Assembly (NCBI RefSeq): GCF_008727865.1
Contig: NZ_VTWU01000011.1
Span: 1 to 64,000 of the forward strand
Origin: Hymenobacter busanensis
GTDB lineage: Bacteria > Bacteroidota > Bacteroidia > Cytophagales > Hymenobacteraceae
Direction: 5' to 3'
Length of the DNA: 64,000 nt
In this document: in pieces, positions 4,097 to 60,718 of the stretch
Position numbering within the stretch: position 1 is the first letter of the stretch
How the letters are laid out: every line of letters begins with the position of its first letter
Notes under the pieces: generated by a model
Database searches by the model: none
What the model was told of the DNA's origin: nothing
Seen by the model: the letters and a program-made list of their open reading frames with translations, nothing else
Made by a program: the position numbers and the translations under genes

Positions 4097-8500
<4,404 letters not shown>

Positions 8501-44482: not shown

Positions 44483-45106
44483 TCATATCAGCGAATCCAG
44501 GCTGCGGCGCGCGTGCGAGGCCGGCCCCAGCTTCTGGAACTCGGTAGGGGTGAGGCCCGTCACTTGCCGAAACTGCCGCGAGAGGTGGGCGGGACTGCTG
44601 TAGCCCAGCTGCTGGGTCACCTCGGCAATACTCAGTTCGCCGTAGCCAATTAGCTCTTTGGCCCGCTCCACCTTTTGGCGGATGATGAACTTCTCGATGG
44701 TAAGACCCTCGGAAGCAGAGAACAAATGGGAAAGATAGTGGTAGTCCTTGCCCAAATGCTCCACCAAGTAATCCGAGTAATTCAGCAGGCGCGGGCCCGG
44801 CGGCGGGTAGTGAATCAGCGCCACCAGCAGGGTTTTGATGCGCTCCACCAGCTGGGCCCGGGGGTCTTCCAGCAAGGCAAACCCGGCATCCAACAACGTC
44901 GCCCGGATGGCCTCCCAGTCCAGGGCCGCCCCGTCGGGCGTGGACACGTCGGCTTCGCCCAGCGCCACGCGGTGCACCTGCAGCCCCAGCGCGCTCAGGT
45001 CCTCGCGCACCACCCGGATGCACTGCGGGCAGACCATGTTCTTGATCAGCAGCCGCTGGCTGCCGGGGGCGGGCAGAATATGGGTAGGGCTCACGTCGTG
45101 GGTCAT
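44483..45106 (-). CDS. AraC-family regulator with N-terminal HMA-like metal domain
   Basis: The 207 aa product combines two domains. Residues about 17-80 look like an HMA (heavy-metal-associated) fold: LLIKNMVCPQCIRVV with CPQC at C26/C29, then VHRVALGEADVS. Residues about 100-200 are an AraC-type double helix-turn-helix, with FIIRQKVERAKELIGYG and SIAEVTQQLGYSSPAHLSRQ. A metal-binding domain attached to AraC suggests a copper/silver sensor that binds Cu(I) directly. It is the third gene of the minus-strand copA-cupredoxin operon, as expected for its regulator. A paralogue at 59250 has lost the second Cys. Confidence 0.85.
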   Translation of the reverse strand: MTHDVSPTHILPAPGSQRLLIKNMVCPQCIRVVREDLSALGLQVHRVALGEADVSTPDGAALDWEAIRATLLDAGFALLEDPRAQLVERIKTLLVALIHYPPPGPRLLNYSDYLVEHLGKDYHYLSHLFSASEGLTIEKFIIRQKVERAKELIGYGELSIAEVTQQLGYSSPAHLSRQFRQVTGLTPTEFQKLGPASHARRSLDSLI

Positions 45107-45124: not shown

Positions 45125-45502
45125 TTATTTAACGACCAGGCTCCCGCGCAGCATGCCCATCCCGCAGGTAAATTCATACCGCCCCGCTTTTTCGGGCAGC
45201 AGCTCCACCAGGGTGGTCTGAAAAGCCGGCAGGTCGCGGCGGATGCGGAAGTCGGGAATGAGTACCTCTTCCGAGCAGCTGTTTTCCTCGTCGCGGTAGA
45301 AGTTCAGCTGCACGGGCTTGCCGCGCTCCACTTCAATCACGTCCGGCGAGTAGCCGCCCTTCACGGTGATGTCCACTTCCTGCACGCCACTGGAAGAAGA
45401 CACGGCGCTGGCCGTTGGGCGGGCCGAGAAGAAAAAGTACCAGATGACAAAGGCGGCCAAAGCCAGCCCCGTCACGGTTACCAGGATTTCGGTTGTATCC
45501 AT
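45125..45502 (-). CDS. membrane-anchored cupredoxin-like protein
   Basis: The 125 aa product has an N-terminal membrane helix (ILVTVTGLALAAFVIWYFFF) and a cupredoxin domain from about residue 40: VDITVKGGYSPDVIEVERGK, PVQLNFYRDEENSCSEEVLI and YEFTCGMGMLRGSLVVK. Likely copper ligands are C76, C113 and Met 115/117. The form is close to EfeO-type cupredoxins. It probably holds copper at the periplasmic face and passes it to or from CopA, whose gene is six bases upstream in the same operon. The transfer role is inferred. Confidence 0.8.
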   Translation of the reverse strand: MDTTEILVTVTGLALAAFVIWYFFFSARPTASAVSSSSGVQEVDITVKGGYSPDVIEVERGKPVQLNFYRDEENSCSEEVLIPDFRIRRDLPAFQTTLVELLPEKAGRYEFTCGMGMLRGSLVVK

Positions 45503-45508
45503 GGGGAG

Positions 45509-47782
45509 TTACGGTTTAGCCGGGGCAAAGCCCCGCAGGCGCAGCGAGTTCGTCAGCACCGACACCGAGCTCATGGCCATGGCCGCCGCCGCCAGCATGG
45601 GCGAGAGCGTGATGCCAAAGAAAGGGTAGAGCAGGCCGGCGGCTACGGGAATGCCGAGCGTGTTGTAGATGAAGGCGAAAAACAAGTTCTGCTTGATGGT
45701 GCGGATGGTCTGCTTGCTCAGCTCGATGGCCGTCACCACGCCCTGCAGGTCGGAGCGCATTAGGGTGATACCCGCCGCTTCCATGGCCACGTCGGTACCC
45801 GCGCCGATGGCCAGGCCGATATCGGCCTGCGCCAGGGCCGGGGCGTCGTTGATGCCGTCGCCGACCATGGCCACCACCCGGCCCTCGGCCTGCAGCTGCT
45901 TCATTTTTGCGGCCTTGTCCTGGGGCAGCACCTCGGCAAAGTAGCGCTGAATGCCCACCTGCCCGGCCACGTGCGCGGCCGTCTGCGGGTTATCGCCGGT
46001 CATCATCACCACTTCTATGCCCTGCTGCTGCAGGCGCTTAATCGCCGCGGCCGAGGTTTCGCGCACGGTATCGGCCACCGCAATCAGGCCCACGGCCTGG
46101 CCGGCAATGGCCACGTACAGCACGGTTTGCGCTTGGGCGAGCAGCTGTTCGGCCTGGGCACTCAGCTCGGCGGGCAGGGCAATGCCCTCGTCGCTGAGCA
46201 GGCGCCGGTTGCCGATGAGCACGGCCTGCCCATCCACGCTGGCCGCGGCTCCTTTGCCCTCCACGGCCCGGAAGCCCGTAGCCGTCAGCATCGGGGCCGC
46301 CTGCGCGTCGGCGTAGCGCACCACGGCCTCCGCCAGCGGGTGCTCGCTCTGCCGCTCTACGGCGGCCACCACCGGCAGCAGGCGGGCGGCATCCTGCCCG
46401 GCAGCGGGCAGCAGCTCCGTCACGGCGGGCTCCCCGCGGGTGATGGTACCCGTTTTGTCGAGCAGCACGGTGTTCACCTGGTGCGCCTTCTCCAGCGCTT
46501 CGGCGTTGCGGATCAGCACGCCGTGTTCGGCGCCCTTGCCCGTGCTCACCATGATGGCTGTGGGCGTGGCCAGGCCCAGCGCGCAGGGGCAGGCGATGAT
46601 GAGCACCGCCACGAAGTTGACCAGCGCCAGCGGCAAGCGGGCCTCCACCGGCGCCAGGTCAAACCAGAGCACGAACGTCAGGATGGCGATGACGACCACC
46701 GTGGGCACGAAGATGGCGCTGACCTTGTCGGCCAGGCGCTGAATGGGCGCGCGGCTGCCCTGCGCTTCCTCCACCAGCTTGACAATCTGGGCCAGCATGG
46801 TGTCGGCGCCTACTTTGGTGACGTGGAAGCGGAAGGAACCGGTTTTGTTGAGCGTGGCCCCAAACACGTTGTCGCCCGCCTTTTTCTCTACCGGCAGGCT
46901 CTCGCCGGTGAGCATGGCCTCGTCCACGGCCGAGTGGCCTTCCTCGATGATGCCATCGGTAGCTACCTTTTCCCCGGGGCGCACGACCACGAGGTCGCCC
47001 AGCTGCACCTGCTCAATGGGCACATCCACTTCCTGGCCGCCGGGGCGCACCACGCGGGCCGTTTTGGCCTGCAAACCCATCAGGGCCTTGATGGCCGCCG
47101 AGGTCTGGGTTTTGGCCCGCATTTCCAGCACCTTGCCCAGCAAGATAAGGGCAATGATGGTGGCGGTGGTGTCGTAATAGACCTCGGCCGTGAGGCCGCG
47201 GCGCATAAACCAGTTGGGCGCCACGGTGGCCGCCAGGCTGTAGAGGAAGGCGGCCCCGGTGCCCACGGCAATCAGGGTGTCCATGTTGGCCGCCCGGTGC
47301 TTGAAGCCGTTCCAGGCCGAGGTGTAGAACTCGCGCCCGCTGTAGAGCAGCACCGGCAGGGTAAGCCCCAGCAGCGCGTAGTTGAGCCATTGCATGTTCA
47401 CGCGCTGCATCATCGCCGGCCAGAGCATGAGCATGCTCAGCGGCATGATGAGGAGCGCCAAACCAACGGCCACCCAGAAGCGGCGCTTGAGCTTCTGATA
47501 AGCCAGGGCTTTCTGCCGGTCAATCTCCGCCTGGCGCTCGGCGGCGCTGGTGTCCGGAGCGCGCTCGATGACGCCGTAGCCGGCGTTGACCACGGCCTCC
47601 TTGAGGGTGGCCGGCGTTGCCTGGCCGGGCAGGTACTGCACCGTTGCTTGCTCGGTGGCAAAGTTCACCACGGCGCTTTGCACGCCCGGGGTGCGGCTGA
47701 GCGACTTTTGCACAAAGGCCGCGCACGAAGCGCAGGTCATGCCTTCGATGTCGAGAGTGGTGGTTTCGGGAGTGGTAGCCAT
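45509..47782 (-). CDS. copA: Cu(I)-translocating P1B-type ATPase
   Basis: This is the cytoplasmic copper/silver exporter, 757 aa. An N-terminal HMA domain has GMTCASC (C17, C20). Eight membrane helices carry the CPC motif in IACPCALG. The actuator has TGESLP, the phosphorylation site is DKTGTIT, the HP motif is SEHPLAEAV, and the hinge is [11 protein letters not shown]. The C-terminal helix pair has [11 protein letters not shown] and [15 protein letters not shown] with the conserved Met and Ser of copper pumps. The start at 47782 ([15 protein letters not shown]) is chosen because upstream in-frame sequence is Arg-rich and unlike any pump. Confidence 0.95.
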
Positions 47783-47875
47783 AGGTATGGGTCTGCGTTG
47801 CCGGTTTGGCCCGCTGCGGGCCGCAGATGAGCGGGTACCCGTCTGGTTTGATGGCACTACAAAGGAACGACAACG

Positions 47876-47908
47876 CAGGCGCGGGGTTGGTACGGAATCC
47901 CGCGCCTG
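47876..47908 (-). terminator. perfect hairpin after the trypsin-like gene
   Basis: CAGGCGCGGG (47876-47885) and CCCGCGCCTG (47899-47908) form a perfect ten-pair stem with a 13-base loop, 16 bases past the stop of the minus-strand gene ending at 47925. The following minus-strand bases are only moderately T-rich (CGTTGTCGTTCC). It should separate that gene from copA downstream. Confidence 0.55.
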
Positions 47909-47924
47909 AATTGCATAATTTGGC

Positions 47925-48839
47925 TTACCCGGCAGACGTCGTCCGCGCCGCGGCCGCCTGCCGGGCCTGCCCATCCGCTAGCCGCTGCAGGCCCCGGCTC
48001 AGGTTGACTTTCACCGTGGTGGACACGGGAATGTTCAGGCCGAAGCTCTGGCGCATGAACTCCAGCAGCACGGTGGTACGCGTCACCAGCAAGTACTTGC
48101 GCCGGCGCACGGTCAGCTCCTCCGTCACGATGCCCACCAGCTTGCGCTCCTGCGCCGGGTCACCGAGCAGGTAGTTGCCCGTGTCCCAGAGGCCACTGCC
48201 GCTGATGCCCTCCATCTTGGGCCGCCGGTGGGGCGCCGGGTTGGTGACGGAAAGCACGTCGCCGGTGAAGTCGAGCACCAGGTGCGCGGCCGGGTGCAGC
48301 CGGAACCCGGCGTAGTCGAAGTCCTTGGTCCGCTGCACCTGCAGCGGGTAGGGCGCCGTTTTCACGTGCCCGTTGAACGAGCGGGTTGTCGCGGCCGGGA
48401 AGCCCACGGACAAGTACACGTCCGTCAGGTGCCGGGGGCTGGTCGAGAGCTCGGCCAGGGTCAGGAATTGGTAGGCTTCCCGCAGCTGGCCGATTTGGCC
48501 TGCGTCGGTCAGCTCCAGCACCGCCAAGTCAATCTTATCGTCCTGGCGCCGGCCCGGGGGCGGCGGGGAGGTCGTCAGCAGCGTGCCGGCCAGCGTCACT
48601 TCGTGGGGCGGCAGGATAACGAAGGTAGTGTAGGCCTGGCCCGCCAGTACGTGCGCGGCCGTGGCAACGAAATAGCGGTTGTCCACCGTCAGCAACACCC
48701 CACTGCCGCACGCCGCGATGCGGCCTTTGCGGGTGTAGAAGAACTGAATGGTGGAACGAAGTATCGCCGCCGTGGCGATACTCAGGGGTTGAGCTTTTAC
48801 TTCTTGTAAAAGCGATGCAGAAGTAGGCGTTGTAGCCAT
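47925..48839 (-). CDS. trypsin-like serine peptidase domain protein
   Basis: The 304 aa product has the S1/HtrA-like triad: VATAAHVL with the catalytic His, [11 protein letters not shown] with the Asp, and [10 protein letters not shown] with the Ser in GxSGS. No export signal is visible, so the protein may be cytoplasmic, which is unusual for this fold. Such signal-less trypsin-like domains occur in bacterial defence and signalling proteins. It lies immediately upstream of copA in the same direction but is separated by a terminator hairpin, so a copper role is not implied. The C-terminal 60 residues are a basic helical tail. Confidence 0.75.
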
Positions 48840-49228
48840 ACGGTAAGGGTGAAAAAAAGAAAGTTATTCGTCCGGGCTGCCGACTACGGGTTGACAGCCG
48901 TTCCTAACATGGAATACGAAATCGGCGCCCCCTTCCCACAAAACGCCCTTACCTTTGCCGCGCAGGGCTGCCCTTTTATCAGGCAGTTACGCCCGGGAAG
49001 CTTATACAATTAGGCTCAGAGCTTGCATAATTTTGCGCTTTTAGCGATTTGGCCACGACCTGGAAGTAAGCCTCAAAAAGCCGCTACGGTCGTTTCCAGC
49101 CTGTTCTTTCGCAAACCAGGGTAGGGCTGCTCCGGCGGAGAGCGGAACCAAGCCGCCCGTTTTGCGGTAGAGAACGAGTCTTGCACTTTCCGAGCAGCTT
49201 CTACTTTTGCAGTTGCTTTTTATCCGTC
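48840..49228. other. divergent intergenic region before the copper export operon
   Basis: The 389-base gap contains the well-formed promoter at 49181-49209 for the plus-strand operon. It also contains another isolated TACCTTTG at 48950-48957 without a spaced upstream TTG, and a minus-strand TAACTTTC close to the trypsin-like gene. No small gene or repeat was seen. Confidence 0.5.
49181..49209 (+). promoter_or_regulatory. Bacteroidetes promoter, TTG-N18-TACTTTTG
   Basis: TTG at 49181-49183 and TACTTTTG at 49202-49209 match both elements of the Bacteroidetes housekeeping promoter with an 18-base spacer, within the normal range. Transcription would begin near 49215, 14 bases before the ATG at 49229. 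It is the best promoter match in the window. Confidence 0.7.
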
Positions 49229-49711
49229 ATGTTCCGTAGCCTGTTCCCTTTTCGACGCTTGCTGGCGACGAGCTTTCTGCTCGTCTTCGTCAACGTGTTC
49301 GTAGGCCAGTGCTGGTGCGCGACGGTCAACGCCAAGGCCCTGGGCCAGCCGGTGCAGGCCCAGGCTACCGCCCCGGAAAAGCCCAGCCACCCTGGCTGCC
49401 ACGGCCACGGCAAACCCGCGGCCAAGCACGACGCCCGCGCCAAGCACCAGCACGGCGCCCCCAGGAAATCCTCGGGCACGCACGACTGCTGCAAGGACAA
49501 GTCGGCCTCGTTGCTCTCGTCGCTGACCGCGCCCGTTGAAAAGCAGCTGTTTTCTCCTGCTCCGGCCCTGCTGCCGGCAGCCACTGATTTCTCCTTCCGG
49601 CCTGCCGCCGGCAAGTGGGATCAAACCCGCGCGGTCATCCTGGTGCCCCGTGAGCACCTGCCGCCCAAGATTCCCGACATCCGGATTTTCATTCAGTCCC
49701 TGACGGTCTGA
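49229..49711 (+). CDS. His/Cys-containing exported protein, first gene of the copper operon
   Basis: The 160 aa product has a signal segment (RLLATSFLLVFVNVFVGQCW) followed by a His/Lys-rich stretch (HPGCHGHGKPAAKHDARAKH, then THDCCKDK) and a C-terminal segment ending in FIQSLTV. The His/Cys content suggests metal binding in the periplasm, but no family was recognised with certainty. It starts 14 bases after the predicted transcription start and precedes the heavy-metal-binding-domain proteins. The ATG at 49229 is chosen over an upstream frame start that precedes the -7 box. Confidence 0.6.
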   Translation: MFRSLFPFRRLLATSFLLVFVNVFVGQCWCATVNAKALGQPVQAQATAPEKPSHPGCHGHGKPAAKHDARAKHQHGAPRKSSGTHDCCKDKSASLLSSLTAPVEKQLFSPAPALLPAATDFSFRPAAGKWDQTRAVILVPREHLPPKIPDIRIFIQSLTV

Positions 49712-49842
49712 TTGGTTTGACGCGCCCAAGGCTCGCCCTGGCATAGCTGTGCTATGTCCGGGGCGGGCCTTGGCGTTTGCGCGTACGCCCCGCTCCGGAG
49801 CGGCCCACCCCACCCTTCTTTCCTGCTTTTACCCGCCCAACC

Positions 49843-49974
49843 ATGAAGAGTTGTTGCGAGCAGGGCAATGCGCCAGCCCCCCGCGGGCCGGGACGTCGCC
49901 TGCTTTCCTACCTGCTCTACGCCGCGCTGGCTGCCGCCCTGGGCTTGGTGCTCTGGCAGCAGCTCCAGGCCTGA
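49843..49974 (+). CDS. 43-residue membrane protein with N-terminal CC
   Basis: A short frame starts MKSCCEQGNAPAPRGPGRRL and continues into one membrane helix (LSYLLYAALAAALGLVLWQ). The N-terminal Cys pair lies before a basic segment, placing it in the cytoplasm under the positive-inside rule. The gene sits between the first gene of the operon and the heavy-metal-binding lipoprotein, so it may be a copper-related microprotein. The only support is its topology and position. Confidence 0.45.
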   Translation: MKSCCEQGNAPAPRGPGRRLLSYLLYAALAAALGLVLWQQLQA

Positions 49975-50031
49975 AGCGCCCGGGACCACCTCCCTGCCGC
50001 CTCCTAACATTCTCACCCTCCAATTTCCTTT

Positions 50032-50991
50032 ATGTACCGCTTTTCTGTTTCCCTGCTGGCCGTGGCCGGTCTGCTTGCTACCGCCAGCTGTTCGTCCGAC
50101 TCCGCGTCAAGCAGCGCTACCAACACCGTTACCACCCCCACGGACGGTCCCAAAGAAGGTACCGCCGCGCACACCGGCGGGCACATCTACTCCTGCCCCA
50201 TGCACCCGGAAGTGACCAGCAACAAAGCCGGGGAGAAGTGCCCCAAGTGCGGCATGAACCTGGAACATACGGACCAGGTAGCCAACGGCAAAACCTACGA
50301 GATGAAGTTCGTGCCGACTCCCGGGGAGTTGATCGCCGGGCAGCTCTCCACCCTCGCCTTCAAGCCCCAGCAGGCCGACAATGACCAAGTCCCGGTGCCG
50401 CTGGACGTCGTGCACGAGAAGAAAATTCACCTGATCATCGTCTCCAAAGACCTGGGGCAGTTTTACCACGAGCACCCTGAGTACACGCCCCAGGGCGACT
50501 ACCGGGTGAAGTACACTTTCCCCAAAGGCGGCGACTACGTACTGTTCCAGGACTACACGCCCACCGGCGCCGGTCACCAGCTGGGCCGCCAGCCCATCAC
50601 GGTCAAGGGCCCGGCCTACGCGCCGGTCAAGTTCAAGAACGACGACATGCAGTGGGAAAAGAACGGCTACAAGGCTTCCCTTTCCTTTGACAAGCCGCTG
50701 ACCGCGGGCCAACTGCTGGGCATGAACATCAACATCACCAAGGACGGGCAGCCCGTGACCGACCTGGATAACTACCTCGGCGCGCTGGGCCACGTGGTCG
50801 TGATCAGCGAAGACACGGAGCAGTACCTGCACGTGCACCCCAACGACCAGGCCGACAAAGGCCCCAACATCGGCTTCAACACCAACTTCGAGAAGCCCGG
50901 CCTCTACCGCGTGTTCCTGCAGTTCAACCACGGTGGGCAGATCCACACCGGCGACTTCACCATCAACATGAAGGGTACGGCGGCCAGCTAA
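50032..50991 (+). CDS. heavy-metal-binding-domain lipoprotein
   Basis: The 319 aa product has a lipoprotein signal with TASC at the lipobox. A heavy-metal-binding domain follows at about 50-80 (YSCPMHPEVTSNKAGEKCPK, then CGMNLE), with a CxMH and CPxCGM pair of metal sites. The remainder is two beta-sandwich regions with many His residues: VHEKKIHLIIVSKDLGQFYH, then EHPEYTP, and LHVHPNDQAD. It would bind copper in the outer envelope. It stands near the start of the copper operon, followed by the DUF305 gene. Confidence 0.82.
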   Translation: MYRFSVSLLAVAGLLATASCSSDSASSSATNTVTTPTDGPKEGTAAHTGGHIYSCPMHPEVTSNKAGEKCPKCGMNLEHTDQVANGKTYEMKFVPTPGELIAGQLSTLAFKPQQADNDQVPVPLDVVHEKKIHLIIVSKDLGQFYHEHPEYTPQGDYRVKYTFPKGGDYVLFQDYTPTGAGHQLGRQPITVKGPAYAPVKFKNDDMQWEKNGYKASLSFDKPLTAGQLLGMNINITKDGQPVTDLDNYLGALGHVVVISEDTEQYLHVHPNDQADKGPNIGFNTNFEKPGLYRVFLQFNHGGQIHTGDFTINMKGTAAS

Positions 50992-51041
50992 GCCGCCCCG
51001 CTCTTCGATTCCTTTTCCAACCCTCAACCAATTCATCACCG

Positions 51042-51764
51042 ATGAAAACCTCCGCATTATTCCTCGCCGCCCTCTGTTCGGGCACCTTGCTGCTGGGCAG
51101 CTGCGACAACAAGCCCGCCGACACGACCGCCACGGAAACCACCACGTCCGAAACGGCATCCACCACCGCGGATACGGCCGGCGACCATTCACACATGGCG
51201 GGCATGGAGCACGGCAGCACGAGCGGCGGCTCGCCGATGATGGGCGCCATGAACGACATGATGGCCAAAATGCACGCCATGCAACCCAAGGGCAACACCG
51301 ACCATGATTTCGCCCACCACATGATCGAGCACCACCGCGGTGCCGTGGCCATGGCTGACATCGAGCTGCGCGACGGTAAGGATGCCACGCTGCGCGAGAT
51401 GGCCGAGAAAATCAAGGCGGATCAGCAAAAGGAAATCGCCGAGATGGAGCCCATTGCCGAGCGCCTCGACGCGGCGCCCACGAACTACAAGCCCCAAGAC
51501 CCCAACGACCCCTTCACCAGCAAGATGAAGGCCTCTATGGACGGCATGATGCAGAACATGCCCAAGGAAACGGGCAACGTGGATCAGGACTTCGTCGGCA
51601 TGATGATTCCGCACCACCAGAGCGCCGTGGACATGGCTAAGGCCGAAGTGGCCCACGGCCGGGACACCAAGCTCAAGGAAATGGCGCAGAAGATGATTGA
51701 CGCGCAGCAGAAAGAGATCCAGCAGTTCAAGGACTGGCAGGCCAAAAACGGCACCCAGAAATAA
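51042..51764 (+). CDS. DUF305 lipoprotein with two DUF305-like repeats
   Basis: The 240 aa product has a lipoprotein signal (LLLGSC) and a Met/His-rich linker (MAGMEHGSTSGGSPMMGAMN). Two copies of a helical module follow: DHDFAHHMIEHHRGAVAMAD... and DQDFVGMMIPHHQSAVDMAK.... The MIxHHxxAVxMA motif is the DUF305 signature, proposed to bind copper or a similar metal. The repeat unit is about 110 residues. Function is unproven; it is regularly found in copper-resistance clusters. Confidence 0.88.
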   Translation: MKTSALFLAALCSGTLLLGSCDNKPADTTATETTTSETASTTADTAGDHSHMAGMEHGSTSGGSPMMGAMNDMMAKMHAMQPKGNTDHDFAHHMIEHHRGAVAMADIELRDGKDATLREMAEKIKADQQKEIAEMEPIAERLDAAPTNYKPQDPNDPFTSKMKASMDGMMQNMPKETGNVDQDFVGMMIPHHQSAVDMAKAEVAHGRDTKLKEMAQKMIDAQQKEIQQFKDWQAKNGTQK

Positions 51765-51791
51765 CCCTTTCTTTTCTCCAACCCCCTTTTT

Positions 51792-52322
51792 ATGAAGTTT
51801 TCTGATTTCCTGCTGGCCAGTGCCCTCCTGCTGGCTCCTCTCTCCCTTTCGGCCCAGCACGGCCACGGCCAAGGCCACAACGCCGCCGGCGAAACCCACG
51901 CCCACAAAGCCCCGCACGGTGGGATTGTGCGCACGGCCGGCAAGTACCACGTGGAGCTCGTGCTGGCCGGCTCGCAGATGACCGTGTACCTGCTTGACGG
52001 CAAGGAGCAGACGCTGGCCAACAAAGGCCTGACCGGCACGGCCATGGTGCTGCAGGGCGGCAAGACAACCTCGGTGGCCCTGGCCGCCTTCGGCGACAAC
52101 CAGTTGCAGGGCGCGCTGCCCGCCGGTGCCACCCCGACCACGGCCATCATTACCCTGCGCCGGGGCAGCGAAACCATCAGCGCCCGTTTTGACAAGCTGG
52201 CCAGCACCAGCGCCAAGGCCAAAGTCACCAGCTACGCCTGCCCGATGAGCTGCAAGGACAGCGCCAGCCAGAAGCCCGGCAGCTGCCCCAAGTGCGGCAT
52301 GGCCCTGGTCAAAAAAGCCTAG
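51792..52322 (+). CDS. exported protein with C-terminal heavy-metal-binding domain
   Basis: The 176 aa product has a signal peptide (LLASALLLAPLSLSA) and a His-rich N-terminus (QHGHGQGHN, HAHKAPHGG). A beta domain with VELVLAGSQMTVYLLDGKEQ follows. A C-terminal heavy-metal-binding motif reads YACPMSCKDSASQKPGSCPK, then CGMAL. Here the CPMH seen at 50180-50260 is replaced by CPMSC, adding one more Cys. It likely binds copper or silver in the periplasm next to the efflux channel genes. Confidence 0.78.
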   Translation: MKFSDFLLASALLLAPLSLSAQHGHGQGHNAAGETHAHKAPHGGIVRTAGKYHVELVLAGSQMTVYLLDGKEQTLANKGLTGTAMVLQGGKTTSVALAAFGDNQLQGALPAGATPTTAIITLRRGSETISARFDKLASTSAKAKVTSYACPMSCKDSASQKPGSCPKCGMALVKKA

Positions 52323-52424
52323 CTGCCCCGCCGTTTGTGGGTCACCCCGTACGGCGGCTCACCGCCCTAGCCCACTCGCTGCAGCCGCAGCGGGTGGGCA
52401 CTGGGTGAACCTGATTTTGCTTGT

Positions 52425-53678
52425 ATGAACTACCTAGGATTTCTGATTCTTCCCGGCTGGCCCGCGCGGCTGCTTCTGCTGCTAGGGCTGCTGGGCAGCT
52501 TCTTCCCAGCACGGGCGCAAACCACCGTCATCAGCCTCGACAGCGCCGAAGCCCAGGCCTTGCGCCGGCACCCGCGCCTGCGCCAGTCCGATGAAGAAAT
52601 TGCCGAGCAGCGCGCCCTCAAGCGCGGCTCGTTTGCCCCAGCCAACCCGGACTTTCTCTGGTCGGCCCCCACGGGCGAGATGTGGGCGCCGGGCGTGGTG
52701 CAGACCATTGACCTGCCCAACGTGTACCGGCGGCAGCGGCAGGTCGCCCAGGCCGGCGTGGTGCTGGCCGAGCGCAACCGCGACGTGAGCCGCGCTACGG
52801 TGCTGCGCGATACCCGTCTGGCTTACCTCGGCCTGCAGTTTGCCGAAGCCCAGGTGCGGCAGTACACCTACCAGGACAGCCTTTACCGGGCTTTGCGCCT
52901 GGCCACGGAGCGGCTGTTTGCGGCCGGCGAAGTCAACTCCCTGCAGCGCATCAGCACCGAGGCCGAAGCGCGGCAGGCCACCGTGCAGCTGCAGCAGGCC
53001 ACCGAAGACCTGCGGGCGGCCCAGCGCCGCCTGGCTTTGCTGCTAGGCCGGCCCGCGGCCGAGCTGACCACCAGCACCGACCTGCGCCGCAGCGGCCCGG
53101 AGCTGGCCCAGGCGGGCGCAGCCCTGCTCGGCACCTTGCCGGCGGCCGATAGCAGCGCGTTGGTGCGCAGCCCCACGCTGGCGGCGGCTACCCAGAACGT
53201 GGCGCTGAGCCAGTCGGGCATCAGCCTGGTACGGGCCCGGCGCACGCCGGCCCTGACGCTGGGCTACCAGAACCAGGCCTTTGAGAACTCCCAAATCAAA
53301 TACCGCTTCCAATTCGGGGTGTCGGTGCCCATCTGGTTCTGGACCTACCGCTCGCAGCTGCAGGCGGCAACGGCCCGCTCCCGGGCCGCCAGCTACCAGC
53401 TGCAAACCCAGCGCCTGGAGCTGGGTACGCAATACCAGCAGGCCCTGGCGGATACCCGCAAATTCTCGGCCTCGCTCACCTACTACGAACAAACCGGCAT
53501 GCCCCAGTCCCGGGCCATCATCAACCAATCCCAACGGCTGTTCCGGGCCGGCGAGGTCAGCTACCTGCAGCTCATCATGAGCCTGAACCAGGCCTTTGCC
53601 ATTCAGAATACCTACCTGACCACCATCCGCGACTACCGTCAGGCCCTGGTGGAACTCTCTTACCTACGGGGTGAATAA
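52425..53678 (+). CDS. TolC-family outer-membrane efflux protein
   Basis: The 417 aa product has a signal peptide ending FFPARAQ. It has the TolC architecture: helical repeats with ALRRHPRLRQSDEEIAEQR, DLPNVYRRQRQVAQAGV (the first repeat's PN turn), and RLFAAGEVNSLQRIS... and RLFRAGEVSYLQLI..., the latter two being the two-fold repeat signatures. It forms the channel for the RND pump at 55984. The stop overlaps the beginning of the next gene's possible GTG start, so expression is linked. Confidence 0.88.
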   Translation: MNYLGFLILPGWPARLLLLLGLLGSFFPARAQTTVISLDSAEAQALRRHPRLRQSDEEIAEQRALKRGSFAPANPDFLWSAPTGEMWAPGVVQTIDLPNVYRRQRQVAQAGVVLAERNRDVSRATVLRDTRLAYLGLQFAEAQVRQYTYQDSLYRALRLATERLFAAGEVNSLQRISTEAEARQATVQLQQATEDLRAAQRRLALLLGRPAAELTTSTDLRRSGPELAQAGAALLGTLPAADSSALVRSPTLAAATQNVALSQSGISLVRARRTPALTLGYQNQAFENSQIKYRFQFGVSVPIWFWTYRSQLQAATARSRAASYQLQTQRLELGTQYQQALADTRKFSASLTYYEQTGMPQSRAIINQSQRLFRAGEVSYLQLIMSLNQAFAIQNTYLTTIRDYRQALVELSYLRGE

Positions 53679-53679
53679 C

Positions 53680-54294
53680 ATGAAACAACTCCTGATTTTG
53701 CTGCTGGGCCTGCTGCTGCTGAGCGGCAATGCCCAGGCCCACGGGGGCGAAGACCACGGCGCGAGCGGCAAAGCTGCCGCCCCGGCCGGGGCCACGTCCT
53801 TCTCGGTGGCAGCCCTCTCGGAGCAGTTCGAGGTGCTGCTGCGCTACGAGCCGCTGGAAGGCGGCGAGCCGGCCGACCTGCGCCTGTTCCTTTCCGACTA
53901 CGCCACCAACGCCCCCATCAAGGGCGCTAAGCTCACGCTCACCAACCCCGAAGACGCCAATCTGAAGTGGGCGGTGACGGAGAAAGGGCCGGGCGAGTAC
54001 CTGGTCGAGGGCGAGTTTCCGGCCAACAAGGCCTACAGCTTCGCCCTGAACGTGGTGGCCGGCGACAAAGCAGACCTGCTGCTGCTTGACGGCATCAAAG
54101 TCGGCGAAAAGCTGCCCGTGGCCGCGACCCCGGCCGCCGCACCCTCCCTTTTCTCTTCCTGGAAAACCATACTGGCCCTGATTGGCGCCTTTGTGCTCGG
54201 CATCGGCCTGACGGCCCTGCTGCTGCGCCGCCGCCCGCGCGCCGGGGTGCCTTCCTCCACTGCTACGCCCGTTGTCTATGAAAACCAAGCATAA
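53680..54294 (+). CDS. His-rich exported membrane protein with a carboxypeptidase-like domain
   Basis: The 204 aa product has a signal peptide (LLILLLGLLLLSGNAQA), then HGGEDHG, a beta-sandwich (about 40-140) and a C-terminal helix (ILALIGAFVLGIGLTALLL). The HGGEDHG motif near the mature N-terminus recurs in the next gene's product. The beta region may be an FixH- or carboxypeptidase regulatory-like fold. It overlaps the adaptor gene by 17 bases, so a structural role in the efflux system is likely. The ATG at 53680 is preferred over GTG at 53671. Confidence 0.6.
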   Translation: MKQLLILLLGLLLLSGNAQAHGGEDHGASGKAAAPAGATSFSVAALSEQFEVLLRYEPLEGGEPADLRLFLSDYATNAPIKGAKLTLTNPEDANLKWAVTEKGPGEYLVEGEFPANKAYSFALNVVAGDKADLLLLDGIKVGEKLPVAATPAAAPSLFSSWKTILALIGAFVLGIGLTALLLRRRPRAGVPSSTATPVVYENQA

Positions 54295-55423
54295 ATTCCT
54301 GCTCGGAACGGCCGCCGCCGGCCTGGTGCTGACGGTGCTGCTGCCCCCGCCCGCGGCCGTCTTCGGTCACGGCGGCGAAGACCACGGCGGCGAGGCCAAG
54401 GCCAGCACCGGTGTGGCGCTGACCGACGAAGTGCTGCTGCCCAAGGAAAGTCAGTTTCTGTTTCAAGTGCGCACCAGCCTGGCCACTTACTCGGCTACCT
54501 ACAGCCGGGCTACGCTCTACGGCACCGTGTCGGCGGCCGCCGGTGGCGAAGGCCGCATCGTGGTGCCCCAGACCGGGCGCATCGTGAGCCTCACTTCCCA
54601 GGTAGGGCAGCAGGTGCGGGCCGGCCAGCCGCTGGCCGTCCTCGAGCAGACGCTCGACGCCACCCAACAAATCGGGCTGAGCACCGAACGGGCCAACGCC
54701 CAGGCCGAGCTGCGCGCCGCCCAGCAGGACTACGCCCGCCTGCAGAGCATTGCCGACATCGCCGCCCGCAAGGACGTGGTAGCCGCCGAGCTGCGCCTGC
54801 GCCAAGCCCGGCAGAACGCCGCCATACTCAATGGTCAGGCCCGCCAGCGCCGCACCACCATCACCTCGCCCATCAACGGCACCGTGGACGTGTTCAACCT
54901 GGCCGTGGGCCAGCAGGTCAACCAAGGCGACGAGCTCTTCCGCGTGCTCAACCCCGGCAAGCTGCGGGTGGAAGCCCAGGTGTTTGCCCAGGACCTGGCG
55001 AAAGTCACGCCCGGCGCGCAGTTCCGGGTGGAAGGCCTGCAGGGCCAGGCCGGCGTGCCCGCGAAGCTGGTGGTATTCAGCAACGTGGTGAATCCGGTCA
55101 ATCAGGCCCGCCAGCTTATTCTGGAGCTGGACGAGGCAGCTGCCAGTGCCTATCGAGCCGGGCAGGCCGTGAACGTGCAGGTGCTGGGCCAGAGCGAAGG
55201 CGGCAAGCCCCAGCTGGTGGTGCCCACCTCGGCCGTCACGGATTTGAACGGCAAGCCGGTGGTGTTCGTGCACACCGAGCCCGAGCACTTCAAGATCCGC
55301 TACGTGCAACCCGGCGCCGTCAACGGCGAGCAAACGGTGCTGCTGCAGGGCGAGGTGAACGAAAACGACCGGGTCGTTACCGCCGGCACCTACCAGCTTA
55401 AGTCTATCTACCTCAACCAATAA
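54278..55423 (+). CDS. cusB: RND efflux periplasmic adaptor (CusB-like)
   Basis: This is the membrane-fusion protein joining CusA-like pump and TolC channel, 381 aa. After a signal segment it carries HGGEDHGG, then a barrel-sandwich hybrid (VVPQTGRIVSLTSQVGQQVR, LAVLEQTLDAT), a short coiled coil, RTTITSPINGTVDVFNLAVG, the beta-barrel domain and the C-terminal domain with TSAVTDLNGKPVVFVHTEPE. Unlike the adaptor at 8519 it is uninterrupted. It overlaps the preceding gene by 17 bases. The His-rich N-terminus could bind copper or silver. Confidence 0.88.
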   Translation: MKTKHKFLLGTAAAGLVLTVLLPPPAAVFGHGGEDHGGEAKASTGVALTDEVLLPKESQFLFQVRTSLATYSATYSRATLYGTVSAAAGGEGRIVVPQTGRIVSLTSQVGQQVRAGQPLAVLEQTLDATQQIGLSTERANAQAELRAAQQDYARLQSIADIAARKDVVAAELRLRQARQNAAILNGQARQRRTTITSPINGTVDVFNLAVGQQVNQGDELFRVLNPGKLRVEAQVFAQDLAKVTPGAQFRVEGLQGQAGVPAKLVVFSNVVNPVNQARQLILELDEAAASAYRAGQAVNVQVLGQSEGGKPQLVVPTSAVTDLNGKPVVFVHTEPEHFKIRYVQPGAVNGEQTVLLQGEVNENDRVVTAGTYQLKSIYLNQ

Positions 55424-55433
55424 CCCCTTGTTC

Positions 55434-55928
55434 GTGAAACACCTTTCTGTTTTCGCTGCGCTGGCTACCGCCCTGGGCCTGTCGGCCTTCACCGCTCAAG
55501 CCCAGGCCCCACATGCCAGCGGCGACGAAGCCGCCGTCAAGGCCGTGCTGCGCCAGTACCAGCAAGCCGTTCAGAAGCTGGACACCACCGGCACGCACCG
55601 CCTGTTCACGGCGGATTCCGAGGTGTTTGAATCGGGTGGGGTGGAAGGCACTTACCGGCACTACGCTGCCCATCACTTGGCGCCGGAGCTGCGCGAGTTT
55701 AGCGCCTTCACCTTCAGCGACTACCAGGCCAAGGTGCGGCTGGACGGCCCCTACGCTTTTGCGACCGAAACCTACACCTACACCATCGGGCTGAAGAAAG
55801 ACCCGAAAACGCCCATCGTGCGCAAGGGCGTGGCCACGTCGGTGCTGCGCAAAAACGCCGCCGGCCAGTGGCAGATTGTGAGCACGCACACGTCGGCCCG
55901 CACGCCCCGCCCCAAGAAACAAAGCTAG
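55434..55928 (+). CDS. NTF2-like exported protein (DUF4440/SnoaL type)
   Basis: The 164 aa product has a signal peptide (LSVFAALATALGLSAFTAQA) and an NTF2-like domain: EAAVKAVLRQYQQAVQKLDT, then TADSEVFESGGVEGTYRHYA and GQWQIVSTHTSAR. The pattern matches the DUF4440/SnoaL cone-shaped fold. The start is GTG at 55434; it could also begin at TTG 55428. It lies in the copper operon between adaptor and pump. A role in metal binding through its His residues is possible, but none is established. Confidence 0.72.
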   Translation: MKHLSVFAALATALGLSAFTAQAQAPHASGDEAAVKAVLRQYQQAVQKLDTTGTHRLFTADSEVFESGGVEGTYRHYAAHHLAPELREFSAFTFSDYQAKVRLDGPYAFATETYTYTIGLKKDPKTPIVRKGVATSVLRKNAAGQWQIVSTHTSARTPRPKKQS

Positions 55929-55983
55929 CGTGCCCCGCCCGTAGGATGATCCATCCTTGGGCTTCACCCTTCTGCTTACCCCA

Positions 55984-58900
55984 ATGCTTGACCAAATTAT
56001 TCGCTTTGCCCTGCAGAACCGGCTGCTCATGCTGGCTTTTGCCCTGGGCCTGCTGATTGCCGGCACCTACACAGCCCGCCAGCTGCCGGTGGACGTGCTG
56101 CCCGACCTGGACCGCCCCCGCGTAACCGTGTTCCTGGAGTCTCCGGGCATGGCCCCGGAAGAAGTAGAGGCCCTGGTGACCCTGCCCGTGGAAACGGCCC
56201 TGAACGGGGCCACCGGCGTGTCGGCCGTGCGCTCGAACTCGGCCATCGGCCTGGGCATGGTATTCGTGGAGTTCGACTATGGCACCGACATCTTCACGGC
56301 CCGCCAGATCGTGTCGGAAAAGCTGCAGACCGTGGGCGAGCAGCTGCCCACCGGCATCACGCCGGTGCTCGGGCCGATTTCCTCGGTGATGGGCCAGATC
56401 ATGCTGGTCGGCCTTACGGGGGGCCAACAAACCAACGCGGCGGATTTGCGCACCTTGGCCAACTACACCGTGCGCCAGCGCCTCTTGTCCATTCCCGGCG
56501 TGGCCCAGGTGATTCCCATTGGCGGCGACAACCTGCAGTACCAGGTGCTGCTCGACATGGCCCGCCTGAACGCCACGGGACTGACGGTAAACCAGGTAGA
56601 GGACGCGCTGCGCAACTCCAACCTGAACACCACCGGCAACTTCTTTGACCGCAACGGCTCGGAGGTGCTCATCCGCAACCTGGGCCGCCTGCGCTCGGTG
56701 CAAGACATCGAGAACATCATCGTGGGCTACCGCGAGCAGTCGCCGGTGCGCGTAGCCGACATCGCCCGCGTGGAGTTCGGCGCCCGCTTTAAGCGCGGCG
56801 ACGGCAGCGTGAACGGCAAGCCCGCGGTGATTCTAAGCATTGAAAAGCAGCCGGGGGCCGCGACCGTAGGCCTGACCCAGGCCGTGGAAAAAGCGCTGGT
56901 CGAGCTCAAGCCCTCCCTGCCCAAGGACGTGCAGGTGAACACCCGGCTCTTCAAGCAGTCGGAGTTTATCGAGTCGAGCATCACCAACGTGGAGGAAGCG
57001 TTGCGCGACGGGGCCATTCTGGTGGTCATTGTGCTGTTTGCCTTTTTGCTGAACGTGCGCACCACGTTTATTTCGCTGGTAGCCATCCCGCTGTCGTTGC
57101 TCGTGACGGCGCTGGTGTTCCGCTTCGCCGGCATCTCCATCAACACCATGACGCTGGGCGGCTTGGCCATTGCCATCGGCGAGCTGGTCGACGACGCCAT
57201 TGTGGACGTGGAGAACGTGTACCGGCGCCTGCGCGAAAACCGGCACTTGCCCAATCCGCGACCGGCGCTGCAGGTCATCTATGCCGCCTCGTCGGAGGTG
57301 CGCAACTCCATCGTGTACGCCACCATCATTGTGGTGCTGGTGTTCCTGCCCCTGTTCGCACTGGAAGGCATGGAAGGGCGCATCTTCGCGCCGCTGGGCA
57401 TTGCCTACATCACCAGCATCGTGGCCTCGCTGTTCGTCTCGCTCACCGTCACGCCGGTGCTTTGCTACTACCTGCTGCCCAAGATGAAGCAGATGGCCCA
57501 CACCGAAACCGACGGGCCGCTGGTACGCTGGCTTAAGCGCAAAGACACGCGGCTGTTGGGTTGGGGCCTGACGCACCCGAAGCTAGTGCTGGGCGTGACC
57601 GGCGTCCTGCTTGCGGCGTCCATGGCCCTGGTGCCCTTCTTCGGCACGGAGTTCCTGCCGCCGTTCAACGAAGGCTCGCTGACGGTGAACTTCTCCGCCC
57701 CGGCCGGCACCTCCTTGGCCGAGTCCAACAAGCTGGGCACGCTGGGCGAGCAGCAGATGCTCAAGATCCCCGAAGTGGCCTTCACGGCCCGCCGCACCGG
57801 CCGCGCCGAGCTGGACGAGCACGCCGAATCGGTCAACAACTCCGAAATCGAGGTAGCCTTTAAGACCGAAGCGGAACTGGAACGAGAGGGAAAAAAGATG
57901 CGCAGCCGCGACGAGATTCTGGCCGACATGCGCCAGAAGCTTAGCCTGATCACGGGCGTCAACGTGAACATCGGCCAGCCCATCTCGCACCGCCTCGACC
58001 ACCTCTTGTCGGGCGTGCGGGCCCAGGTAGCCATCAAGGTGTTCGGCAACGATTTGCTGGAGCTGCGACGTTACGCCAATGAGATTCGCGCAGCAGCCAG
58101 CACCGTGCCCGGCGTAGTGGACCTGCAGGTGGAAAAGCAGGTGCAGATTCCGCAGCTGCTTATCCGCCCGCGCGACCAGGCGCTGCAGGCGTACGGCATG
58201 GCCCGCGGCGAGGTGGTGCAGGACTTGGAAACGCTGTTTCAGGGCACGGTGGTGTCGCAGATGCTCGACGGGCAGAAGCGCTTCGACCTGGTGGTGAAGC
58301 TACCCGAAGACCAACGCAACGACATTGCCGCCATTGGGCAAACCCGCATCGAAACCCCGTCGGGGGCCATGATTCCGGTGAGCCAGGTGGCCGACATTGT
58401 GTACGAGCCGGGCCCGAACACCGTCAACCACGAGAACACCCAGCGGCGCATCACCATCTCGCTGAACGTGGCGGGGCGCGACCTGGGCTCGACCGTCAAG
58501 GAGATTCAGCAGAAAGTCAGCCAGCAGGTAAAGCTGCCGGCGGGTTACTACCTGACCTACGGCGGGCAGTTTGAAAGCCAGCAATCGGCTTCGCAGAAGA
58601 TCCTTTGGCTGAGCTTGTTTTCGCTGGCTGGCATCTTCTTGGTGCTCTACTCCCACTTCAAGTCCACCTACATGGTGGGGCAGATCATGCTCAACATCCC
58701 GCTGGCGTTGATCGGCTCGGTGGTGGCCGTGCTACTCACCGGCGGCACCTTCAGCATTGCTTCGCTGGTGGGCTTCATCACCCTCACCGGCATTGCCTCG
58801 CGCAACGGCATCATGATGATTTCGCACTACATCCACTTGGTAGAGCACGAAGGCGAGCAGTTCGGCAAGAAGATGATCATCCGCGGCTCGCTCGAGCGCC

Positions 58901-59202: not shown

Positions 59203-59249
59203 CCCGCTCATGGCCCTCTGTTATTCCCTTTCGCTCTACGCCGCGCCGC

Positions 59250-59852
59250 ATGACGTCCCCTAATCCTGAGCCCCCGTGCACGCTGCTTTACATCAAGCAC
59301 ATGGTATGCCCGCGCGGCATCCGCATGGTGCGGCGTGAGCTGGAACAGCTGGGCCTGCGGGTACTGGACGTGCGGCTTGGCGCCGCGACCGTGGCCGCCG
59401 CCGCTGAGGAGCTGGATTGGCCCCGCATCCGCCAGGTGCTGGCGGATGCGCAGTTTGCCTTGCTCGAAACGGAGCACCAGACCTTGCTCGAACGGGTCCA
59501 TACGGCCACCGGGCACCTGCTGCGCCGGCCCGAGCCCCTGCGGCACCGGGCGTTCGGGCCGGCGCTGGCCCACGAATTGAGCTTGTCGTACGGGCAGCTC
59601 AGCGCTGCCTACGCCCGGCTTGCCCCGGGCGATACCCTGGCCGCGTACATCAGCCGCCAGCGGCTGGTGTACGCGCAGGAACTATTGATCACGTCTAGTT
59701 CCGGAGTGGGGCGCATTGCCCACCAACTGGGCTACAGCAGCCTGGCACACTTTTCCGGACAGTTTCGGCGGGTAGCCCGCTGCGCTCCCTCGGCGTACCG
59801 CAAGCAGCAACGGGCCCTGACGACCGGCACCCCGGCGGAAAGCTCGAAATGA
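59250..59852 (+). CDS. AraC-family regulator with degenerate HMA-like domain
   Basis: The 200 aa product is a clear paralogue of the protein at 44483. LLYIKHMVCPRGIRMVRREL aligns with LLIKNMVCPQCIRVVREDL, except that the second Cys is Gly (C20 kept, G23). The AraC part is present: YISRQRLVYAQELLITSSSG, RIAHQLGYSSLAHFSGQFRR. So the domain architecture is conserved, but the CxxC metal site is broken. It may sense something else, use the remaining Cys with another ligand, or act as a constitutive or dominant partner. It follows the RND pump by 47 bases. Confidence 0.82.
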   Translation: MTSPNPEPPCTLLYIKHMVCPRGIRMVRRELEQLGLRVLDVRLGAATVAAAAEELDWPRIRQVLADAQFALLETEHQTLLERVHTATGHLLRRPEPLRHRAFGPALAHELSLSYGQLSAAYARLAPGDTLAAYISRQRLVYAQELLITSSSGVGRIAHQLGYSSLAHFSGQFRRVARCAPSAYRKQQRALTTGTPAESSK

Positions 59853-59904
59853 TGCAAGCACCCGGCCAGCATGTGTAAAACTGCTGCCTGAGTAGAAGGT
59901 ATAT

Positions 59905-59939
59905 ACGATGAACAGCCCTTCATTTAGCAGGGCTATCGT
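59905..59939. promoter_or_regulatory. hairpin upstream of the copper-storage gene
   Basis: ACGAT (59905-59909) plus AGCCCT (59914-59919) pair with AGGGCT (59929-59934) plus ATCGT (59935-59939), giving a two-part stem. There is no T-run, so it may be a leader hairpin of the storage protein mRNA rather than a terminator of the AraC gene. Its role is unknown. Confidence 0.4.
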
Positions 59940-59958
59940 TCACTTAACCTAACTACCC

Positions 59959-60291
59959 ATGCACGCCCAAAACCAAAACCTGCTTCAAGCCCTGAATGAC
60001 TGCATCGCCGCCTGCGAGCATTGCGCCACCGCCTGCCTGCAGGAGCAGGACGTGAAGATGATGGCTCGCTGTATTAGCCTGGACCGCGACTGCGCTGATA
60101 TCTGCGCTCTGACGGCCCGCTTCGTGGCCCGCGGCTCCGAGCACGCCGAGCACCTGCTGCGCGAGTGCGCCGAAATCTGCCGCGCCTGCGCCGCCGAGTG
60201 CATGCGGCACCAGCACATGGAGCACTGCCGCCAGTGCGCCGAGGCCTGCCGCCGCTGCGAAGAAGCCTGCATGGCCGGGGTTGCGGCCTAG
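59959..60291 (+). CDS. four-helix-bundle copper-binding protein (Csp-like)
   Basis: The 110 aa product is a copper-storage-type protein, lacking a signal peptide and so cytosolic. It has 16 Cys, most in CxxxC or CxxC pairs along four helices: NDCIAACEHCATACLQEQ, CISLDRDCADICALTARF, RECAEICRACAAECMRHQ and CRQCAEACRRCEEACM. The Cys face the bundle core and bind many Cu(I) ions. It would buffer copper in the cytosol while the pumps remove it. It follows a hairpin and ends before a strong terminator. Confidence 0.88.
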   Translation: MHAQNQNLLQALNDCIAACEHCATACLQEQDVKMMARCISLDRDCADICALTARFVARGSEHAEHLLRECAEICRACAAECMRHQHMEHCRQCAEACRRCEEACMAGVAA

Positions 60292-60310
60292 GCCCCGGCT
60301 GCGGCTCGCG

Positions 60311-60344
60311 AAAGCCAGCCTGGCATCGGTCCGGCTGGCTTTTT
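60311..60344 (+). terminator. rho-independent terminator after the copper-storage gene
   Basis: AAAGCCAGCC (60311-60320) pairs with GGCTGGCTTT (60333-60342) across a 12-base loop, followed by TT. It ends the transcript of the storage protein gene and separates it from the chaperone. Confidence 0.7.
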
Positions 60345-60452
60345 GCATACGGCCAGGCCGCGCCGTAGGGCACACCACGTTACCGGCGATGCCCTAAATC
60401 ATGCAAGTACAGGCCGCAATTCCGTACGTGCTCCGGTGCACCGGCCAGTAAT

Positions 60453-60471
60453 TTTGGGTGTTTACTTTTTG
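60453..60471 (+). promoter_or_regulatory. possible promoter of the copper-chaperone gene
   Basis: TTTTGG near 60453 and TACTTTTTG (60463-60471) resemble the Bacteroidetes -33 and -7 elements, but the -7 has one T too many and the spacing is short. It precedes the chaperone ATG at 60509 and follows a strong terminator, so some promoter must lie here. The elements given are only the best candidates. Confidence 0.3.
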
Positions 60472-60508
60472 CAGCCGCCTGGTTCGGCTGCACTCAACCG
60501 CTACTCCC

Positions 60509-60718
60509 ATGAAAACCCTTCAGTTCAAAACCAACATCAACTGCGGCGGCTGCATCAAGGCCGTTACGCCCACCCTCAACCAAGAAGCCGGCGCCGGCAA
60601 CTGGCAAGTTGACACCGCCAACCCGAATAAAATCCTGACCGTGACCTCCGACAAGCTCACGGCCGAGCAGGTGGTGCAAGCCGTACAGGAAGCCGGCTTT
60701 GAAATTCAGCCCGCATAA
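60509..60718 (+). CDS. CopZ-like heavy-metal-associated chaperone
   Basis: The 69 aa product is one HMA domain: MKTLQFKTNINCGGCIKAV with CGGC at C12/C15, then TPTLNQEAGAGNWQVDTANP and VVQAVQEAGFEIQPA. This is the beta-alpha-beta-beta-alpha-beta form of copper chaperones that hand Cu(I) to CopA. The start at 60509 is used; the frame begins earlier but upstream sequence is not chaperone-like. It is a single-gene unit between two terminators. Confidence 0.9.
   Translation: MKTLQFKTNINCGGCIKAVTPTLNQEAGAGNWQVDTANPNKILTVTSDKLTAEQVVQAVQEAGFEIQPA

Follow-up and report, generated by a model that had tools for sequence, protein, structure and literature searches.

A predicted copper-responsive regulator with HMA-like and AraC-type domains, and its candidate operator, in Hymenobacter busanensis and other Bacteroidota

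Background

The Cu(I)-sensing regulators of copper efflux that have been reviewed belong to the MerR, CsoR, CopY and ArsR-like families, and AraC-type proteins are not among them in the portion of that review available to us (PMC7558416). CueR is described as activating copA and copZ in response to Cu(I) (PMC7558416). This is the role proposed below for a different protein, although family and operator type differ. The CsoR/RcnR proteins (PF02583) also sense metals, including Cu(I), in the cytosol, as proposed for the present regulator, but they form a repressor family. In a survey of marine bacteria, the Bacteroidota are presented, in the excerpt available, with homologues of two-component and ECF-sigma copper systems only (PMC10141476). 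The AraC-type protein YbtA responds to Cu(II)-yersiniabactin, has critical cysteines at C206 and C209, and controls siderophore genes (PMC8725597). It resembles the regulator described here in being a copper-linked member of the AraC family with two critical cysteines, and differs from it in its copper-siderophore ligand and its siderophore targets; furthermore, the available part of the source describes no HMA domain in YbtA (PMC8725597).

AraC, MarA and SoxS carry a C-terminal double helix-turn-helix (HTH), as does the regulator. A cupin-type N-terminal domain for ligand binding or dimerisation is common, albeit not universal, in the AraC/XylS family, and AraC itself has one. The classical AraC half-site is 17 bp long, and the spacing of the araI1-I2 direct repeat is 21 bp. 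In dimers of the HMA chaperones CopZ/Atox1, Cu(I) is shared by two HMA domains and sits between their CxxC sites.

The regulator was found in a window of 64,000 nucleotides from Hymenobacter busanensis, this being the whole stretch of DNA analysed. It appears to combine known domains in a way for which we found no description in the open-access literature, a coverage that lies outside most subscription journals; to that extent the original prediction of an undescribed sensor architecture stands.

The regulator and its operon

The regulator gene and the genes and domains associated with it are the following.

44483..45106, minus strand: HMA-AraC regulator, 207 aa, from an open frame and its translation (HTH_18, E 3e-17)
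45020..45031, minus strand: CPQC motif (C26-C29), candidate Cu(I) site; CxxC is kept across the family frames
44858..45058, minus strand: HMA-like domain, residues 17-83; the family profile matches copper HMA domains in the PDB
44531..44764, minus strand: AraC double HTH, residues 115-192 (PF12833 and PF00165 above cut-off)
45125..45502, minus strand: cupredoxin-domain protein between the regulator and copA (Cupredoxin_1 PF13473, E 3e-20)
45509..47782, minus strand: copA, P1B ATPase with an N-terminal HMA (TIGR01511 above cut-off)

The 207-aa protein with a CPQC motif (C26/C29) and an AraC double HTH had been predicted without a strand; it is real, and lies on the minus strand. It contains no cysteines other than C26 and C29, within IKNMVCPQC, and their conservation across the family argues against a chance or spurious open reading frame, a reading that was rejected. 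Scores of 63 bits for PF12833 and 48.5 bits for PF00165 place the protein among the AraC/XylS regulators with a double HTH. Membership of the CueR family was rejected, since the 25 NCBIfam matches listed, out of 26, are AraC-type regulators and TIGR02044 is not among them; membership of the CsoR family was rejected as well. Among the matches listed, the nearest relatives are from Hymenobacter, with 80-91% identity in the best eight.

The gene order on the minus strand is copA, cupredoxin, regulator, the regulator being last, with gaps of 6 bp and then 18 bp. The copA open reading frame spans 45509-47974, and the likely ATG start at 47782 was placed by homology to Hymenobacter loci. Because the three genes share a strand and are separated by these short gaps only, they are probably cotranscribed as one operon. 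This agrees with the earlier placement of the regulator in a copA-cupredoxin operon: both genes precede it on its strand, and the copper context held.

A dense metal-resistance-type cluster occupies positions 49181-60718 of the window, with HMBD, DUF305, an RND pump, an outer-membrane factor and Csp-like and CopZ-like genes. The contig that carries this cluster around the regulator is 96 kb long and may be a plasmid, and a related cluster at locus L044 is on a plasmid record.

The N-terminal domain

No cupin-type N-terminal domain was matched by Pfam in the regulator; homology to HMA domains was found there instead, a difference from AraC with its cupin-type ligand domain. The H. busanensis sequence alone gave no match to PF00403 at E<=1, and membership by the curated model is not supported. 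Matches at E<=1 were obtained for 14 of the 28 members of an alignment of the family (A2), the best being 1.8e-4. A profile of 18 N-terminal segments aligned with the HMA domains of CopA over 63 columns (hhalign; probability 95.3, E 2.3e-8), and against the PDB the N-terminal family profile matched ATP7B (3.8e-14, summed over domains) and Bacillus subtilis CopZ (1.2e-5). The profile of the full family retrieved AraC-type DNA-binding domains as well as HMA domains. Furthermore, the MxCxxC metal motif is present in the regulator as M24, C26 and C29. Homology thus points to an N-terminal HMA fold, and the claim of an HMA-like segment fused to AraC was borne out at the level of family profiles, with Pfam silent on the single sequence. 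The domain is homologous by profile to the CopZ/Atox1 chaperones and has MxCxxC in common with them; unlike them, it is fused to a DNA-binding domain, and it is a few residues shorter.

Distribution of the family

A phylum-wide search retrieved relatives of the regulator at E<=1e-15 in 182 of 395 Bacteroidota genomes, representing 95 of 171 genera. The HMA-AraC regulator belongs to a widespread family of the Bacteroidota and is not a one-off. A scan of named genomes gave at least 563 confirmed relatives, from which the best 80 loci were kept; these include Ignavibacteria, Melioribacteraceae, Rhodohalobacter and one metagenome-assembled genome labelled Acidobacteria.

Since A2 was extracted by motif, and left out L003, a CxxG paralogue, among others, CxxC was recounted without a motif filter, and the conservation held. 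Both C26 and C29 are cysteines in all 30 family frames of the 29 phylum-wide loci, which are the best-scoring matches. The best 80 named loci provide 84 frames, of which 81 have CxxC, but this set is biased towards the motif because one of its two search patterns was CxRC; the exceptions are one CSRG and two fragments ending short of the motif. A further alignment (A3) omits the main copies of seven loci, namely L038, L039, L040, L041 and L043 (near-duplicate or partial) and L044 and L055 (interrupted).

Gene neighbourhood

A copA gene of the CPC type is present in the fetched flank of 44 of the best 80 loci, in 45 copies, all on the strand of the regulator; the full 10 kb on either side was present for 48 of these loci. 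Roughly two thirds of the 36 loci without a CPC-type copA have copper-type neighbours. Where representatives were checked, the other neighbours are SO_0444 Cu/Zn exporters, HMA-MauE, multicopper oxidase, RND pump, TonB receptor and HYC_CC_PP genes, and the SO_0444 exporter beside regulators has an HMA domain of its own (NF033936 above cut-off). Eleven loci have no obvious copper gene (L053, L054, L078, L083, L086, L089, L091, L092, L097, L098 and L109), some of which end at contig edges.

Copper as the metal of the regulator is suggested by these neighbours, though it might instead be Ag(I) or Zn. CxxC pairs can serve as thiol switches, and the SO_0444-family neighbours are annotated Cu/Zn, so a domain that responds to redox state, or to a soft metal other than copper (Ag, Zn or Cd), could be imagined. 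Against this, the leading partner is the CPC-type CopA of the copper class, and multicopper oxidase, cupredoxin, Csp-like and CopZ-like genes are found alongside the regulator. We regard a signal other than copper as very unlikely.

The candidate operator

A first motif search, using three widths on the sequences upstream of the regulators or their inferred operons, gave a weak signal (log-likelihoods of 63, 97 and 128 against 52, 86 and 97 in the best controls). When the copA upstream sequence of the window was aligned with those of 11 Hymenobacter loci, a conserved block became apparent, CAAATTATGCAA..ATTCCGTACCAAC. A matrix built from 11 Hymenobacter copA-upstream sites was applied to 69 other loci, in none of which did the best match lie before the regulator itself. 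An operator at that position was therefore rejected, and the search was moved to the copA upstream sequences. The raw matrix placed its locus-wide best match before copA in 7 of the 33 non-Hymenobacter loci with copA, where 0.34 would be expected.

The matrix was then refined on 46 copA upstream sequences, each being tested with its genus or group held out. The groups were Hymenobacter with the window, Adhaeribacter, Pontibacter, Mucilaginibacter with Pedobacter, Dyadobacter and Sinomicrobium, the other loci being held out singly. In this test, which has a mild leak in that the full model had served to choose the initial sites for the other groups, the locus-wide best site (rank 0) lay upstream of copA in 25 of the 46 (0.41 expected), and the copA upstream reached rank 2 or better in 34. 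Eight of the 46 scored below 5. In L044 the copA frame is interrupted, and its site scores 40.1 at 7197; in L057, L079, L080, L082 and L116 the site lies just outside the 300-bp upstream stretch, between the regulator and copA; upstream of L064 and of the second ATPase of L072 no site was found.

The resulting candidate operator spans 40 bp and is a direct repeat of ATnnTRyAA, the two copies lying 21 bp, or two helical turns, apart. The self-correlation of the matrix is 0.96 at a lag of 21 (8 column pairs), and absent at 20 or 22. The repeat spacing is that of araI1-I2, and the candidate half-site, of about 10 bp, is more compact than the classical AraC half-site.

As a negative set we used 23 copA-like upstream sequences from 15 genomes without a match to the regulator at E<=1e-15; as absence was defined by this threshold only, weaker relatives may be present in them. 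These genomes were drawn from 20 listed among the 213 of 395 without such a match. From 35 copA-like matches, 12 were left out, namely seven loci that were weaker, mostly partial or of non-copper class, and five matches without a locus. None of the 23 scored above 0 (maximum -0.2), whereas 38 of the 46 held-out sequences scored above 5 (Mann-Whitney p 5.7e-9). Lineage is a partial confounder of this comparison, because the negative genomes are mostly more distant relatives; one of them (G111, locus L120) belongs to the same order. On these scores, a conserved operator before copper-export genes appears to track the presence of the regulator.

Across the best 80 loci there were 99 hits above a score of 16, against 4 in reversed sequence, and a site above 18 was present in 56 loci, against 1 of 80 in the reversed control; in 14 of the 80 no site scored above 14. 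Since the model was trained on sites from copA loci, the loci without copA provide a more independent test. Here, sites were found before HMA-MauE genes (L051, L075, L100 and L108), SO_0444 exporters (L052, L059, L062 and L071), a multicopper oxidase gene (L056) and an RND pump gene (L105). Several operator-like GTGAAT..ATGTAA repeats were seen at L098:6262-15154 (Niastella), in a fetched stretch with no CPC-type copA; these may belong to another regulon or be members of a repeat family.

The repeat could in principle be bound by another protein, such as a LytTR-type or CusR-like response regulator, while the HMA-AraC protein does something else. LytTR proteins bind direct repeats of about 9 bp with spacers of about 12 bp, a similar layout. 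The site is absent, however, from the 23 copA-like upstream sequences of the 15 negative genomes, though LytTR proteins are encoded in 16 of the 20 genomes searched, and a generic LytTR explanation was rejected for this reason. Furthermore, HMA-AraC is the sole DNA-binding family among those recurring neighbour clusters whose representatives were inspected, a subset of all the genes present. Binding by a different protein is accordingly a poor explanation, with little chance of being correct.

Promoter geometry

Downstream of the candidate operator, outside the model, TTTG is found at +20 in 49 of 82 distinct sites and at +19 in six, and at any other offset in at most three. The longer TAnnTTTG/C begins at +16 in 26 of these sites and at +15 in four. 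Some of the 82 are related sites from Hymenobacter, and the set is not wholly independent. TAnnTTTG is the -7 box of the Bacteroidota. No conserved -33 TTG was seen in the columns between the site and this box in the 82 sites. The downstream half-site occupies the place of the -33 element, at a fixed spacing to the -7 box.

Such a layout is expected of an activator standing in for the -33 contact. A copper-responsive repressor, whose apo-form would block RNA polymerase until copper releases it, might also be considered, as the CsoR, CopY and ArsR-like copper sensors repress, at least in the part of the review available (PMC7558416), and the candidate site is close to the core promoter. The absence of a conserved -33 TTG, with the downstream half-site in its place at a fixed distance from the -7 box, is nevertheless activator geometry. 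Most AraC-family proteins, moreover, act as activators, and repression is in our judgement unlikely.

Candidate sites in the H. busanensis genome

Sites and associated genes in the window are as follows.

47884..47923, minus strand: proposed copA operator CCAAATTATGCAATTCAGGCGCGGGATTCCGTACCAACCC, from the Hymenobacter footprint; score 34.9, the strongest in the window
47860..47867, minus strand: -7-like box TTCCTTTG of copA, 16 bp downstream of the operator, a spacing fixed across sites
60394..60433, plus strand: proposed operator before the copZ-like gene; score 27.1, with a -7-like TAATTTTG at offset 15
60509..60718, plus strand: CopZ-like HMA protein, 69 aa (PF00403 25.6 bits, cut-off 24.8)
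48996..49035, minus strand: operator-like site flanked by a trypsin-like gene and the divergent copL-like gene; score 26.7, no TTTG at +19/+20
49226..49711, plus strand: copL-like His-rich protein, start MFRSLF placed by homology
59845..59884, plus strand: weaker operator-like site preceding the Csp-like gene; score 16.1, no -7 box at the usual spacing
59959..60291, plus strand: Cys-rich protein resembling Csp copper storage proteins (DUF326 above cut-off; TIGR04401 E 7e-11, below cut-off)

The original prediction named copA as a target, in agreement with the position of the strongest predicted site. With Hymenobacter and the window held out, this site scores 15.8, and three places in the 64 kb score higher. 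The 4.9 Mb of the organism's own genome were also searched with a strict pattern of both halves modelled on the Hymenobacter sites. It matches exactly at four places, three of them in the window, and at a fifth with one mismatch; read backward, it has a single match at one mismatch or fewer.

The promoter of the gene at 49181 had also been named as a target, and this is less clear-cut: the distance from the likely start at 49226 to a good site is about 190 bp, but the site has the opposite orientation. The spacing is nearly the same in L040 and L043. The copL-like gene has TTG and TACTTTTG boxes of its own, and its homologue at L039:6440-6922 matches CopL_fam below cut-off. Its regulation from this site is therefore possible, though the layout would be non-standard. 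Counterparts of the 48996-49035 site were found at L040:6085, L041:6085, L043:5922 and L044:5949, about 1.2-1.3 kb upstream of copA, and the gene following sites of this type varies between species.

In the stretches of this genome that were fetched, three sites have no obvious copper gene, at position 15183 of the window (20.2), at L157:8446 (18.0; followed at 626 bp by a 196-aa open reading frame) and at C3:1032013 (16.5; followed at 314 bp by one of 150 aa). Because these outscore the site at 59845, weak sites are not to be trusted by themselves.

Paralogues

The genome of H. busanensis encodes three members of the family. One paralogue lies within the window.

59250..59852, plus strand: regulator paralogue with CPRG replacing CPxC, 40% identity by alignment

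CxRG is also found in its orthologues in L039 (5496-6149, minus strand), L164 and L165, so the second cysteine has been lost in a conserved manner across several Hymenobacter-type genomes. As a partner of the main regulator, the protein may be blind to copper or have an altered affinity. In both the window and L039 its gene adjoins a Cys-rich Csp-like gene. The third member is chromosomal (L002, with CPRC; L153:5550-7674), stands after a TonB-receptor-like open reading frame and is followed by the gene for a His/Met-rich protein of 484 aa that has no Pfam match. Scanning of its locus with the operator model revealed no operator of the 21-bp-repeat type, and this paralogue may therefore read another site.

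Tandem pairs of family members were seen at L093:9995-11226 and L036; L093 has one operator-like site before the second tandem regulator and another before copA.

Other copper regulators in Bacteroidota

Among 198 Bacteroidota genomes no protein matched the CueR model above its cut-off of 147.4 bits, the CueR-like proteins reaching up to 137.6 bits. In G003 and G008, which have no close HMA-AraC, a CueR-like gene lies just upstream of copA. In G163 (C20), G054 (C10) and G038 (C11) only about 4-8 kb separate HMA-AraC from a CueR-like gene, so that in that genus a single cluster may contain two regulators of copper type. As some genomes also have a CueR-like gene, HMA-AraC need not be the sole sensor, and a simple division of labour between the two is not favoured. 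The CsoR family was found in 61 of the 198 genomes and HMA-AraC in 96, with both in eight; this split does not represent many independent events, because 43 of the 61 CsoR genomes belong to one family (f18).

Proposed mechanism and significance

The explanation that best accounts for these observations, and which we hold with considerable confidence from sequence comparison, is that the HMA-AraC proteins are cytosolic Cu(I)-responsive activators acting via the 21-bp direct repeat. Metal binding, DNA binding and activation by the regulator are what we infer. The HMA domain would take Cu(I) at CxxC, probably from the pool or the chaperones feeding CopA. The copper-loaded regulator would bind as two subunits to the repeat of ATnnTRyAA spaced by 21 bp, a site and spacing evident from sequence, with the downstream half at -33 of promoters with a TAnnTTTG -7 box. 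By this geometry, RNA polymerase would be recruited to copA, to the genes for copZ-like chaperones and to other copper genes. As copA, cupredoxin and regulator probably form one operon, the loop would be positively autoregulated.

A more far-reaching speculation, which we put forward tentatively and consider somewhat doubtful, is that this protein is the main cytosolic copper sensor so far missing in many Bacteroidota, and that a copper-bridged HMA dimer replaces the cupin dimer. Cu(I) held between two CxxC sites would then set two HTH units on the 21-bp repeat, replacing the -33 element.

For genetic work in Bacteroidota, the candidate operator points to a promoter that could be induced by copper. 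With the regulator present in 182 of 395 genomes of the phylum and an operator that predicts its targets, cytosolic copper sensing in the Bacteroidota becomes directly testable.
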